DNA of 64,000 nucleotides, taken from Salinigranum marinum. GTDB taxonomy: Archaea > Halobacteriota > Halobacteria > Halobacteriales > Haloferacaceae. The stretch is taken from positions 248,001-312,000 of the forward strand of contig NZ_CP100463.1 in the NCBI RefSeq assembly GCF_024228675.1, written 5' to 3'. The position numbers and the translations under genes are program-made. Every line of letters begins with the position of its first letter. Within the stretch, counting starts at the first letter, position 1. Shown here piece after piece: positions 41,281 to 48,093 of this stretch. The notes beneath the pieces were generated by a model that was not told the origin of the DNA, made no database searches, and saw nothing but the letters and a program-made list of their open reading frames with translations.

Positions 41281-42168
41281 TCAACCGTCGGATGGTTCAT
41301 CCATCGCGTCGAACCCGCTGATCACCTGCAGGAGAGCCTGTGTCTCGGCGTGCCTTCGGGCCCACTGCAGCTCTCGCCGCAGGTCGTCCGTACGGTCTTG
41401 GACGTGATCGACGGCCACACGCATCGTGCGGATCCGGGCGAGTTGCTCGCTCGCCGATGAGTGCAAGACGGCATCGTAGAGCTCGACGAGGAAGCGCTCG
41501 GTGACAAGGTGCCGCACGAACGCTTCCAGGTCCTCAGACGCGTGAACGGGAACGCGAGGAGCAGCTCTATCGGCAGCACCCGGTTCGATCGGCCAGAGGG
41601 CCTTCTCGACCGTCTCGTACTCGAACCCTTGGGCGGGTCGGTGGTGGACGACGCACAGCCCGTCGAGGTGATCCCCCGCGAGGAGCTCCAAGAGCTCGAG
41701 TGCGAGTTCCTCCACGCGCACGTAGGGGGGAACGTTGAACGAGGGCAGCGAGCGGCTGAACGTCGGCTCGAACCCCCGCTGTGAGAGGACGCGGGAGGCT
41801 TTCGATCCGAGGACCAGGGGCACGGCGTGTCGCCCGTCGTCCTCGACCCGATCGAGCGTTCGTTGGAAGGTGTCGAGCGCTTGCTCGTTGAACGGTCCGC
41901 ACAGGCCCCGTTCGGACCCCACGAGGAGCACGCCGGTCCGTTGACCCGCCCCTTCGCCGAGCAGCCGCGCCCGCTCCGTCGCGGAGAGTTCTCTCGTCGC
42001 GCCTCGAAGCATGCGCGAGATATGTGCCTCGTAGATGTCCAACGGCTCCGAGCGTTCGTCGGCGCGTCGGTAGGCGACCTCCGCGACGGAGCGGATCGCC
42101 CGCATGAGTGGCTCCAAGCCGGAGACTGCACCGAGATGATCCTCGATCTGGATCGGCTCGCGGCTCAC
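41281..42168 (-). CDS. atpG: N-ATPase gamma subunit
   Basis: A 295-residue central-stalk subunit. N- and C-terminal helices form the coiled coil (LEPLMRAIRSVAEVAYRRAD; ARIRTMRVAVDHVQDRTDDLRRELQWARRHAETQALLQVISGFDAM) and the Rossmann-like middle carries SERGLCGPFNEQ, the family signature. Slightly shorter and more divergent than bacterial gamma, as usual in N-ATPases. GTG start at 42168 overlaps the atpA stop (GTGA). Last gene of the operon. Confidence 0.9.
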   Translation of the reverse strand: MSREPIQIEDHLGAVSGLEPLMRAIRSVAEVAYRRADERSEPLDIYEAHISRMLRGATRELSATERARLLGEGAGQRTGVLLVGSERGLCGPFNEQALDTFQRTLDRVEDDGRHAVPLVLGSKASRVLSQRGFEPTFSRSLPSFNVPPYVRVEELALELLELLAGDHLDGLCVVHHRPAQGFEYETVEKALWPIEPGAADRAAPRVPVHASEDLEAFVRHLVTERFLVELYDAVLHSSASEQLARIRTMRVAVDHVQDRTDDLRRELQWARRHAETQALLQVISGFDAMDEPSDG

Positions 42169-43757
42169 GCTCGCTCCTCCGTGTTCTGGGTGACGTCTTC
42201 TTCTTGTCCTCTGTCACCCTCGCCTGTCCCTTCGCTGTCTCGGAGCTCGTCCGGCTTGGCCGCCTCGAGGGAAGCCCCGACCCAGTCCCGTAGGCGCTCC
42301 TCGAGCTCTGGCGTGATCGTGTCGGCGCTCCGTAGATCCTCAGCGATCCCCGGTACCTCGTCCTGATGGTCTTCCAACGCGTCCTCGAACCCCGGCACCG
42401 CCTCAGCCGGCCAGCCCTCGAGCAGATTTTCCTGGTGCGTCCACAGGAGCGCTACTTGGATGGGGAGATCCGCGATCTCGCGCGGCTCTTGCTGGATGAT
42501 CTCGACGAGCCGTTCCCCGCGAGCGATCTGCCGCTTCGTCGATTCCTCGATGATCGCGCCGAACCGCGTGAACCCCTTGACCTCCTCGTACTGGGATAGT
42601 TCGGGTCTGACCCGCGCGGCGACCTCCTGGAGCGGTCCCGGCTGGGCGTCCCCGCCCACCCGAGAGACCGACTGGCCGACGTCGATGGCGGGGCGTCGAC
42701 CTTCCGCGTACAGGTGGGGGTCGAAGTAGAGTTGGCCGTCGGTCATCGAAATCAGGTTCGTCGGGATGAAGGCGGTGATGTTCCCACGTTGGGTCTCGAT
42801 GATCGGCAACGCGGTGGCCGAGCCGCCACCGTGCCGGTCTTCGAGCTTGAAGGAACGCTCCATCAGGCCCGCGTGAACCGAGAAGATATCGCCGGGGTAG
42901 GCCTCGCGACCGGGAGACCGTCGCAAGAGGAGGGACAGTTCGCGATACGCGTTCGCGTGCCGAGACAGGTCGTCGTATACGACGAGACTGTGGTCTCCTT
43001 GCCAGGCGAACCACTCGGCCATCGTGCATCCGGTCAAGGCGGAGAGGTAGCGCACGGACGCGGGGGCATCAGCGGGGGCGAACACGACCGCAGTGTGGTC
43101 TAGGGCGTCGTGACGGTCGAGCTGGTCGACCAGATTCAGGACGGTCGAACGCTTCTTGCCGATGCAGACATAGATGCAGTCGACGTCCTCGGTCCCCTGT
43201 GCGAGGATCGCGTCCACCGCGGTGCTGGCCTTCCCCGTGTTCCTGTCACCGAGCAGAAGCATACGCTGCCCGCGCCCAATCGGGGTCGCGGTATCGATCG
43301 ACTTGATGCCGGTGAGCAGGGGCCCACGGATCGGCTGACGGTCAAGCGGCCCCGGGGCAAGCTGGCGGATCTCCCGGCGTTCCGTCGTACCGAGCGCTCG
43401 CTCTCCGTCCATGGGTTGCCCAAGCGGGTCGACCACGCGTCCAAGGATCTCGGACCCGACGGGGACCCGGAGCGTTTCCCCCGTGCGGCGGACCGTGGAC
43501 CCGGCCTGGACTCCTTCGGTGGCCCCGTAGATGGCCACGCCGACGCTCTCTTCGTCGAGATCGAGAACCTCCCCCCTCGTCCCGTCTTCGAAGGCGACTA
43601 GCTCGTGGAGCATCACGGTAGGAAGGCCTTCGACGTGAGCGATCCCGTCGCCAACGTGCAGGACGCGCCCGACGTCCTGGACCGACGCTTGGACGCGACG
43701 CGGCGGGCCGTTCTCGAGAGCCTCGAGAGCCTCCTGGAGCGCTTTGTCGAGGTCCAT
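42165..43757 (-). CDS. atpA: N-ATPase alpha subunit
   Basis: A 530-residue non-catalytic nucleotide-binding subunit. Features: beta-barrel start (RVQASVQDVGRVLHVGDGIAHVEGLP), P-loop at 170-178 reading GDRNTGKAS where classical alpha has GDRQTGKT, SALTGCTMAEWF, DLSRHANAYRELSLLLRR with GREAYPGDIF, and VSRVGGDAQ. The helical C-domain ends in an acidic tail. The change of the P-loop Thr to Ala (Ala177) may weaken Mg binding at the non-catalytic site. Start overlaps the atpF stop (TGATG). Confidence 0.95.
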   Translation of the reverse strand: MDLDKALQEALEALENGPPRRVQASVQDVGRVLHVGDGIAHVEGLPTVMLHELVAFEDGTRGEVLDLDEESVGVAIYGATEGVQAGSTVRRTGETLRVPVGSEILGRVVDPLGQPMDGERALGTTERREIRQLAPGPLDRQPIRGPLLTGIKSIDTATPIGRGQRMLLLGDRNTGKASTAVDAILAQGTEDVDCIYVCIGKKRSTVLNLVDQLDRHDALDHTAVVFAPADAPASVRYLSALTGCTMAEWFAWQGDHSLVVYDDLSRHANAYRELSLLLRRSPGREAYPGDIFSVHAGLMERSFKLEDRHGGGSATALPIIETQRGNITAFIPTNLISMTDGQLYFDPHLYAEGRRPAIDVGQSVSRVGGDAQPGPLQEVAARVRPELSQYEEVKGFTRFGAIIEESTKRQIARGERLVEIIQQEPREIADLPIQVALLWTHQENLLEGWPAEAVPGFEDALEDHQDEVPGIAEDLRSADTITPELEERLRDWVGASLEAAKPDELRDSEGTGEGDRGQEEDVTQNTEERA

Positions 43758-46191: not shown

Positions 46192-46580
46192 GGTTCTTGT
46201 CGTCGTTTCCGCGAGAAGGAATGAGTCATCTTCTGGTAGATCCGATCGAACCGTTGCCTTGCCTCTTCCTCCATGGCTTCCAACTGCTTCTCTTCGTGAC
46301 TGATCGCCTCGTCCAGCGTCTCCAGGTCGACCCCTTCCCGCGCAACACCGGTCAGGATGGTGACTTGGTCGTTCTGGACCGATAGGAAGCCACCGTGGAC
46401 AGCGACCTGCTGGGCCCCACCCTCCGGCAACCGATAGGAGATCACGCCGGGCCGGACGCGTGCTTGGAAGGGGGCGTGGCCGGAGAGGATCCCGATCCAG
46501 CCATCAGGCAGGGGCGCGTTCACGGCTTCCACCGCCACGTCGACGACGAGTCTCTCTGGAGTGCGGACCTCAAGATGCAT
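46188..46580 (-). CDS. atpC: N-ATPase epsilon subunit
   Basis: A 130-residue epsilon subunit. Beta-sandwich start ([36 protein letters not shown]) and the short C-terminal helices ([21 protein letters not shown]). It contacts gamma and the c ring and can brake rotation. The start at 46580 overlaps the end of atpD by 11 bases. Confidence 0.92.
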
Positions 46581-48093
46581 GGGCTCCTCCCTCCTCACGG
46601 TCGTCAGCGAGGTTCCCGTGCTTGCTCGAGGGCGCCCCTGGGTCGTCGTCCTCGTCCTCGAGGGTCTGGGCCTTCTCGAGCGCGTCGTCGATCGTTCCGA
46701 CCATGTAGAACGCCTGCTCGGGGACGTCGTCGTGGCGGCCGTCGAGGATCTCGCGCACGCCCCGGAGGGTATCCTCGAGGGGCACGGAGACCCCCTTCGT
46801 TCCGATGTAGCGCTCGGTCGTGAACAGCGGCTGGGTGAGGAACCGTTGCAGACGCCTGGCCCGGAGCGCGGTCGTGCGCTGCTCGCCGGAGAGCTCATCC
46901 ATCCCGAGGATCTCGATGATGTCCTTGAGGTCCTCGTACTCGGCGAGCGTCGTCTTGACCCTCCGCGCGATCCGGGCGTGCTCCTCGCCCACGAAGCGGG
47001 GGTTCAAAAGCGAGGAGCTAGATCGAAGTGGGTCCAGGGCGGGGTAGAAGCTCCGGCTGGCCAGGTCCCGCGTGAGAACCCCCGAGGCATCGAGGTGCGC
47101 GAAGGCTGCCACGACGCCGGGGTCGGTGAGGTCGTCCGCCGGGACGTAGATCGCTTGAATGCTCGTGATCGACCCCTGCGTGGTGCTCGCGATGCGCTCC
47201 TGAAGCTTACCCATTTCCAGGTCCAGCGTGGGCTGGTAGCCGATTTCGGAGGGGATCCTGCCCAGGAGCGCGGAGACCTCCATCCCAGCCTGGGCGAATC
47301 GGTAGATGTTGTCGATGAAGAGAAGCACGTCCCGATGATCGTGATCCCGGAAGTGCTCAGCTACCGTCAGCGCGGTGTGCGCGACCCGGAACCGGGCACC
47401 CGGCGTCTCGTGCATCTGACCGAAGACGAGCACCGAATCCTCCAGCAAGCCCTGCTCTTTCATCTGCAGATAGACTTCGTTTGCCTCCCGAGTCCGTTCG
47501 CCGACACCGGCGAACACCGGGACTCCGCCCTCGTGCGTGATGGTTCGCTGCATCAGCTCCATCACGAGCACGGTCTTGCCGACGCCCGCCCCGCCGAAGA
47601 GCCCGAGTTTGCCACCCTTGGGCATCGGGACGAGCAGATCCAGGGCTTTGATCCCAGTCTCATACGGCTCGCTTGAGGGCCGCTGATCGACCATGGCGGG
47701 CGGTTCCTGTTCGATCCCGACGTGGCGGGCCGCTTCGATCGGATCGCCGTGGTCCACCGCGACGCCTTTGACGTTGAGGGCCCGGCCGAGGATGGGTTCG
47801 CCGACGGGAATGGGCAACGGCTGCCCTGCTGCGATCACGTCGAGGCCTCGGTGCAAGCCAACTGGGTTGTCAAGCGCGAGAGCCCGTACCTGATCGGGAT
47901 CGGTGTGGCTTCGGACCTCCGCCGTGACGACCTCGCCATCGGGACGAGGGATGGAGAGCGCATCACCGATCGAAGGCAGTGATCCCTCTGGGAACGCGAT
48001 CTCGAGGACAACGTCGTGGATCGCCACGAGTTCACCGCTCGGTTCCTGACTGGAGTCTGACCGTCCGTCGTCCGTTCTGTCGTCCGTACCCAT
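46570..48093 (-). CDS. atpD: N-ATPase beta (catalytic) subunit
   Basis: A 507-residue catalytic subunit. Walker A GGAGVGKT (167-174), catalytic Glu199 in [11 protein letters not shown], Walker [15 protein letters not shown], the DELSEEQ-type loop (MDELSGEQ), and the adenine-side Tyr in the EIGYQPTL region are intact. N- and C-terminal acidic extensions indicate adaptation to high salt rather than a recent import. Gene order beta-epsilon first is the N-ATPase hallmark and differs from bacterial F-type operons, which end with these two. A TATA-like box lies about 65 bases upstream. Confidence 0.95.

Follow-up and report, generated by a model that had tools for sequence, protein, structure and literature searches.

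N-ATPases, which are presumed or proposed to be ion pumps (ProAD, PMC11738941), are encoded in bacteria and in Methanosarcina in the gene order atpDCQRBEFAG (Dibrova 2010, as related in PMC11738941, PMC5706428, and PMC5376962). In its account of archaea, ProAD (2,339 archaeal genomes, GTDB v202) places N-ATPases in the class Methanosarcinia only and gives no complete F-ATPase, and the corresponding passages of Mahendrarajah 2023 (PMC10656485) report F-type enzymes from three Methanosarcinales genomes only. Here we describe an operon of this family from the haloarchaeon Salinigranum marinum, located on the minus strand at 41281–48093 of a 64,000-nucleotide stretch (contig NZ_CP100463.1, positions 248,001–312,000; hereafter, the window). 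Its most unusual feature, overlooked by an earlier reading made without database searches (hereafter, the sequence-only reading), is a doubled rotor subunit c with two ion sites. Searches of a library of open-licence papers gave no report of a haloarchaeal N- or F-type ATPase.

The operon consists of eight intact open reading frames (ORFs) in the order beta–epsilon–AtpQ–a–c–b/delta–alpha–gamma. This is the N-ATPase order without AtpR: where the ProAD layout (beta-epsilon-X-X-a-c-(b delta)-alpha-gamma) has two genes X, the window has one, AtpQ. The order of ordinary bacterial F-ATPases (a-c-b-delta-alpha-gamma-beta-epsilon, as in E. coli) is not matched, since beta and epsilon lead and the operon holds no separate delta gene, delta being fused to b. 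Six of the seven junctions overlap by 1–11 nt and the remaining one, c/b, is 1 nt apart, so that by layout the genes form a single transcription unit. All eight products match their own rotary-ATPase family in Pfam and NCBIfam. Chance is excluded by these matches and by the copy found in a second genus, which is 88–90% identical and gives dN/dS values of 0.06–0.27 (NG86, YN00) across the eight genes.

Subunit c (atpE, 44646–45194, 182 aa, 18.9 kDa) is a fused double hairpin with two PF00137 stretches (59.4 and 57.5 bits). The ligand residues are Q30/E63/S64/Q65/Y68 in hairpin 1 and Q122/E155/S156/L157/Y160 in hairpin 2; in the alignment, helix 1 of both hairpins places Gln at the position of Ilyobacter tartaricus Gln32, and helix 2 places Glu-Ser at 65–66 and Tyr at 70. 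This is the Q-E-S-Y-type Na+ ligand set given by Mulkidjanian 2008 (PMC2359735), and each hairpin carries the residues that mark an Na+-dependent rotary ATPase (Gln/Glu32, Glu65, Ser/Thr66, Tyr70). The hairpins differ at position 67, which is Gln in hairpin 1—as also in E. hirae NtpK, according to PMC2359735—and Leu in hairpin 2, like the Methanosarcina-type rows and Sulfuricella. Each ion site takes ligands from two neighboring hairpins, so two nonequivalent kinds of site are expected. A PF00137 profile search found no second N-type c gene in either carrier genome, each of which holds three such domains: the fused c accounts for two and subunit K of the A-type enzyme for one. With the fused c as the sole N-type c gene found, the ring, if assembled at all, must be built of it.

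Doubled rotor subunits are known elsewhere. The Na+-F1Fo enzymes of Acetobacterium woodii and Clostridium aceticum resemble the window in having a double-hairpin c, c1, in an F-type enzyme; in c1 hairpin 2 lacks the carboxylate, and a single-hairpin c gene is also present (PMC7911925). Neither trait of that hybrid rotor occurs here: each hairpin has its site, and the search turned up no further N-type c gene. In the PDB, A. woodii c1 (4bem_J) matches the window's c best in sequence (E 6.4e-19) as well as in fold (TM 0.71). The A-type c/K subunits of Methanothermobacter and Methanopyrus have multiplied hairpins, two or more of them intact, that retain ion ligands (PMC2359735), but they belong to A/V-type enzymes, whereas the window enzyme is F/N-type. 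Among plasmids in PLSDB, relatives of the doubled c occur in 17 records, with at most 56% of c covered. The combination of an N layout with a doubled rotor protein bearing both ion sites was not met in the surveys and searches.

The two halves of c are sisters (93/84) among the 20 c rows compared and stand on the N side next to Sulfuricella c (89/93), in a tree of just 93 columns that drew a long-branch warning; the duplication thus appears to be this enzyme's own. Against TIGR03322, the N-type c model (cut-off 130.85), the hairpins pass when summed (145.7) and score 85.6 (hairpin 1) and 70.9 (hairpin 2) singly. On the same model, whose cut-off is strict, the N-type c subunits of Sulfuricella (92.8) and Sphingobium (110.9) fail, that of Picosynechococcus passes (143.9), and an F-type c from Fusobacterium scores 70.8. 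By profile score, then, hairpin 1 is N-like, and hairpin 2 is no nearer the N-specific c model than an F-type c is. The whole c and hairpin 2 exceed the cut-off of the F-type c model TIGR01260, and hairpin 1 does not.

The remaining Fo genes follow the N layout. AtpQ, between epsilon and a, is an AtpI/gene1-like protein of 109 aa with two hydrophobic segments (45862–46191; PF09527, E 6.1e-12, 45.9 bits versus a cut-off of 26.6). Subunit a (atpB, 45194–45865, 223 aa, PF00119) has the conserved Arg in SLAIRLFANML. The b subunit (atpF, 43757–44644, 295 aa; PF00430, PF00213) has a delta-like C-terminal domain, barely above the PF00213 (OSCP, delta) cut-off (23.4 versus 22.3 bits), and an acidic tail. 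AtpR (PF12966) matched in neither of the two carrier genomes, while G660 and G621, two further archaea with an N-ATPase, both gave matches, as did M. acetivorans alone among 14 controls. As for a hidden AtpR at 45400–46700, no ORF of at least 55 aa has two hydrophobic segments except the frames of Q and a. These ORFs, the domain matches, and the missing PF12966 match bear out the eight-gene N-ATPase order minus R that the sequence-only reading had proposed.

Within F1, beta (atpD, 46570–48093, 507 aa; TIGR01039, 619.9 bits) retains its catalytic P-loop and GER motif, and alpha (atpA, 42165–43757, 530 aa; NF009884, 584.7 bits) retains its arginine finger (SVSRVG). The alpha P-loop, GDRNTGKAS in both carriers, has Ala where all 24 of the other aligned rows have Thr (GKT); the sequence-only reading, which had every catalytic residue kept, is thus right for beta and for the arginine finger and wrong for this residue. 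Epsilon (atpC, 46188–46580, 130 aa; PF02823, E 1.4e-22) and gamma (atpG, 41281–42168, 295 aa; PF00231) complete the set. The operon has a GC content of 0.653, versus 0.585 in the remaining window, and its proteins are acidic (pI 4.4–5.9).

Overall, the locus shares with N-ATPases its gene order, AtpQ, the fused b/delta without a separate delta, and its standing as a second enzyme beside the main synthase. It departs from them in lacking AtpR, in its GKA alpha P-loop, in an F1 that falls outside the 18 sampled N rows, and in its double-hairpin c, where the c subunits of the aligned N loci are single hairpins. AtpR-less N-ATPases are known, from Nitrosococcus halophilus (PMC4154653) and, as seen here, from Sulfuricella denitrificans plasmid pSCD (L049). 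The Sulfuricella operon has the window's order, beta-epsilon-Q-a-c-b/delta-alpha-gamma, and leaves no space in which AtpR could lie between Q and a; its c also lacks a helix-1 carboxylate and, in the c tree, stands as the closest outgroup to the doubled c. It differs in having a single-hairpin c (88 aa) and a GKT alpha P-loop.

With an N layout, an Fo that leans toward N, and an F1 equidistant from both types, the enzyme reads, within the limited sampling of N-types, as a stem member or a divergent one. Of the seven N-specific NCBIfam models (TIGR03305, 03166, 03306, 03322, 03321, 03324, and 03323), six stay below cut-off and the c model passes only through its summed hairpins. The general F-type models TIGR01039, TIGR00962, TIGR01131, TIGR01144, and TIGR01216 are over cut-off, and TIGR01146 (gamma) is below. 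Beta scores higher on its F-type model, over cut-off, than on the N-type TIGR03305 (557.1 bits, below cut-off), and alpha does likewise. By BLAST score, a, b, and c do best with N-types and alpha, beta, and epsilon with F-types, in overlapping ranges.

In the alpha+beta tree (26 rows, 1003 columns), the window and its relative in Halogranum amylolyticum form a long branch (1.39) that attaches between the F rows (6, support 100/99) and the N rows (18, 98/95), and the a+c2 tree places them in the same way (N 94/93, F 94/91). Grouping of F1 with the sampled Methanosarcina-type rows was rejected by the approximately unbiased (AU) test (p 3e-10), as was grouping with Sulfuricella (p 0.016); joining a 13-row group (Picosynechococcus, G621, and Methanosarcina-type) was borderline (p 0.046). 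Rooting the F/N tree with A-type subunits did not resolve the position of the carriers. The sequence-only reading's designation as N-type is accordingly upheld by gene order, AtpQ, and the fused b/delta, and qualified by an F1 outside the sampled N clade and by N-specific models of which only that for c is passed, through the summed hairpins. Nesting among the sampled F-types, the outcome which that reading had set against its own proposal, did not appear, and the sampled Methanosarcina-type enzymes fail as a near source.

These trees sample N-ATPases without Chloroflexota, Desulfobacterota, Planctomycetota, and other groups, and the rows called Methanosarcina-type are those of genus g134, so assigned from ProAD's account. 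All trees omit Cereibacter (incomplete) and Novosphingobium (a near-copy of Sphingobium). The F1 tree omits Acaryochloris and A. brasilense, whose alpha or beta ORFs are incomplete, and represents G621 and L069 (Methanosarcina-type) by alpha only. Six of the 11 Methanosarcina-type loci are omitted from the Fo tree and nine from the c and rooted trees; Paracoccus, whose locus has no a or c, is omitted from the Fo and c trees, and the rooted tree also leaves out G621, Acaryochloris, and A. brasilense.

The window lies on contig C3 (321,259 bases) of a four-contig, 4.9 Mb assembly, a replicon that is presumably a plasmid; the bacterial N-ATPases of Sulfuricella, Picosynechococcus, and Sphingobium are also plasmid-borne. 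The related operon of H. amylolyticum (NZ_FODV01000013.1, 118,326 bases; L035; the equally long G709:C15 carries the same operon) comes from the same family, Haloferacaceae, and a different genus, and it was the sole relative found in the genome-contig collection by a search with c that reaches close relatives only. The two share an island (37648–48114; three blocks, 88–90% identical) comprising a CBS-MaoC dehydratase, PhaE, PhaC, and the ATPase operon. The polyhydroxyalkanoate (PHA) synthase PhaC (39573–40664, plus strand) is a convergent neighbor kept alongside the operon. Because two assemblies share the operon together with its haloarchaeal neighbors, it is joined to haloarchaeal DNA.

Related repeats in direct orientation occur at 33486, beside a DDE transposase ORF, and at 37356–37444 and 48312–48399 (both plus strand), the latter two bracketing the island 200–250 bp outside either end of the shared block. 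Since the third copy adjoins a transposase ORF, we take the repeats as termini of an insertion sequence (IS), the left one probably a remnant, and infer that such termini may have moved the island. A TnpB gene starts 1.4 kb right of the shared block, and the window holds two such genes (OrfB_IS605; 49475–50536 and 25379–26578). The IS-rich zones that the sequence-only reading saw on both sides are therefore partly borne out, by the bracketing repeats and the right-hand TnpB.

The dN/dS values between window and H. amylolyticum indicate purifying selection on all eight genes. Fourfold-site differences are 0.19–0.31 in the operon, 0.19 in PhaC, and 0.25 in MaoC, versus 0.36–0.46 in seven chromosomal ORFs around the A-type operon (3 of 10 such ORFs, with dN/dS of at least 0.9 and few fourfold differences, were set aside as antisense); PhaE, at 0.38 over 80 sites, is the exception within the island. 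With differences below those of the chromosome, the island looks younger than the chromosomal split, which fits transfer between genera.

The N terminus of AtpQ has a history of its own. A 103-nt tandem duplication (46090–46298, minus strand, 80% identical) copies the 3′ end of the epsilon gene into the start of atpQ, where the copy is translated in another frame, an arrangement conserved in H. amylolyticum. The first 40 codons of atpQ have a dN/dS of 0.20 in their own frame between the two carriers; the two other frames contain stops in H. amylolyticum, and one of them is also stopped in the window. The epsilon-derived N terminus is a small case of overprinting.

The operon is sporadic. The haloarchaeal search that the sequence-only reading had called for, carried out with alpha (E 1e-60), found it in 2 of 467 genomes from four families, that is, in 2 of 170 genomes of the home family, and the same query found none in the three other families of the order (0/125, 0/146, 0/26), for which the result in the home family serves as the sole positive control. 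The three congeners listed for S. marinum lack it. Of 391 genomes drawn from the class, 390 match the beta model TIGR03305 via A-type subunits, and none is over the cut-off; only the window's own genome stands out (E 2.5e-167, next best 1.3e-39). Several genomes in this draw have three weak matches, such as G044 (best E 6e-24) and G060 (6e-25). In a draw from the phylum, 13 of 392 genomes match: the window's, 11 of genus g134, and 1 of g164. Alpha matched 557 plasmid records, all below 60% identity (43–49% among the 25 listed), and pattern searches of IMG/VR contigs with alpha or a, which reach near relatives only, gave no close relative.

The host also has a complete A-type ATPase. All nine subunits—H, I, K, E, C, F, A, B, and D—are encoded on contig C1, the chromosome, although I and K fall below their own NCBIfam cut-offs (K is over that of PF00137). 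About 4 kb separate the D gene from B, and a LOV/PAS-type sensor gene lies in the interval (G000:C1 2722181–2728248, L079). The sequence-only reading's second rotary machine beside an A-type enzyme is thus supported, and with the A-type set complete, a second enzyme is not needed for ATP synthesis. The simplest reading, by analogy with N-ATPases, is that this extra enzyme uses ATP to pump cations, and the ligand set and molar Na+ outside the cell make Na+ the favored coupling ion. The pump or salt-stress role given to it in the sequence-only reading is a putative one.

We therefore regard as probable, though well short of settled, that the operon encodes a complete, functional F1Fo-family enzyme of N layout, acquired on an island and kept beside the A-type synthase, which exports a monovalent cation, probably Na+, at the expense of ATP. 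We infer its assembly, pumping direction, ion, ring size, and accessory roles as follows. A haloarchaeal lineage would have acquired the operon on a plasmid-borne island and retained it, and ATP hydrolysis would drive export in molar salt. The beta/alpha hexamer, with gamma and epsilon, would turn a ring composed solely of fused c dimers, whose number of hairpins would then be even. As each hairpin has one ion site, the ions carried per turn need not change upon fusion; if both sites work, one ion per hairpin, the ion-to-ATP ratio would be set by ring size. At position 67, one kind of site would be completed by the Leu of hairpin 2 and the other by the Gln of hairpin 1. The b/delta fusion would serve as stator, AtpQ probably aids Fo assembly or cation supply, and AtpR would be dispensable in this enzyme.

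Several points weigh against this account. The Thr-to-Ala change in the alpha P-loop could weaken nucleotide binding at the noncatalytic sites. The AlphaFold model of c has four long helices (H4-43, H45-78, H94-135, and H137-170), with a mean pLDDT of 76.7 in the best model, but it was built from two sequences, and the other four of the five models score 44–54 and are not confident. M. acetivorans can grow without its N-ATPase, the function of which is under debate (cited in PMC10656485). The choice of ion is exposed as well: the c ring of the Burkholderia pseudomallei N-ATPase, predicted to bind Na+, was found to be H+-specific (PMC5376962), and ProAD (PMC11738941) lists Methanosarcina N-ATPases as H+. 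Since the sampled Methanosarcina-type c subunits carry Glu32-Glu65-Ser66-Tyr70, the ligand set used here may not suffice for an Na+ call.

These precedents, and the Leu67 that hairpin 2 shares with Methanosarcina-type c, are what speaks for the same enzyme being H+-coupled, as an ATP-driven proton exporter or a generator of membrane potential. We judge this unlikely, if far from negligible, given that Gln, Glu, Ser, and Tyr occupy the ligand positions in both hairpins and that ProAD, by its own rule, assigns Na+ to a multihairpin subunit whose sites are mixed. Na+ occupancy would likewise be favored by the very high Na+ of the habitat. Improbable is a role as a back-up ATP synthase rather than a pump, to which the higher scores of beta and alpha on F-type models could point. 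Noncatalytic-site mutants of thermophilic F1 are reported to lose sustained hydrolysis and retain synthesis, behavior that the GKA P-loop would fit; the noncatalytic site here, however, differs in one P-loop residue only, the layout is that of presumed pumps, and the A-type enzyme already provides a complete synthase.

Chance retention of a decaying cargo operon on mobile DNA would agree with the sporadic distribution in the home family, the absence from the three listed congeners, the probable IS termini on either side, and the altered P-loop; it seems very improbable for an operon whose eight ORFs are open in both copies, whose dN/dS is well below 1 throughout, and whose c kept both ion sites after duplication. 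We give practically no credence to the idea that this is an ordinary F-type operon, brought in by contaminating bacterial DNA or by very recent transfer from bacteria. The bacterial type of the enzyme and its higher GC would suit such an origin, but the proteins are acidic, the order is not F-type, all plasmid matches to alpha are distant, and the same island lies among haloarchaeal neighbors in a second genus, which answers the sequence-only reading's own concern about a contaminant contig. Going beyond the preferred account of an island-acquired cation pump, the enzyme may represent a third deep F/N lineage, distinct from ordinary F-ATPases and from crown N-ATPases alike: AtpR-less, with an all-double-hairpin rotor, a site in every hairpin, two alternating nonequivalent kinds of site, and unequal paired ion steps. 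This proposal is tentative, and we lean against it without dismissing it.

The surroundings of the operon offer further observations. The CBS-MaoC dehydratase, PhaE, and PhaC (37743–40664) are coconserved with the ATPase, and the chromosome holds another PhaC (61% identical). PhaC also lies upstream of the N-ATPase on a conjugative Novosphingobium plasmid, and Sphingobium shares the adjoining acetate kinase–fabI genes. We did not adopt PHA linkage as a general rule: no PHA synthase is listed at three Azospirillum loci or at those of Methylocystis, Acaryochloris, Picosynechococcus, and Sulfuricella (in the viewed stretches of an incomplete gene table), and the four ORFs downstream of the Paraburkholderia locus include none. 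In Acaryochloris sp. 'Moss Beach', a cation:proton antiporter gene (L050 2967–4196) lies within the N-ATPase operon. Upstream of beta, a 47-nt element at 48176–48222 is 81% identical to positions 5962–6008 of the H. amylolyticum contig amid upstream DNA much of which differs, and is a possible promoter or regulatory site. A MarR-type regulator and PemK-like pair stand beside the operon at 48561–49300 and at 56966–57470; the stretch 48449–48700, which includes the MarR gene start, recurs at 56966–57217 (89% over 252 nt), and similar DNA is found on eight other haloarchaeal plasmids. The same replicon encodes a PPK1 polyphosphate kinase (22976–25156), an Na+/Pi cotransporter (60416–61501), and a ferredoxin oxidoreductase beta subunit and SufBD (5103–8316).

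A complete N/F-type enzyme in a haloarchaeon may provide the cell, in addition to its A-type synthase, with a primary cation exporter driven by ATP, and it is new relative to the two surveys whose accounts place archaeal N/F-types only in Methanosarcinia (PMC11738941, PMC10656485). Its sporadic distribution supplies natural pairs of carrier and noncarrier congeners for salt physiology. The doubled c with both sites makes it testable why rotor hairpin fusions often lose an ion site, permits paired-site mutants within one polypeptide, and raises the question of how an all-site fused rotor affects ring size and the ion-to-ATP ratio. If the third-lineage proposal is true, rotation would proceed in unequal pairs of ion steps in a membrane facing molar Na+.

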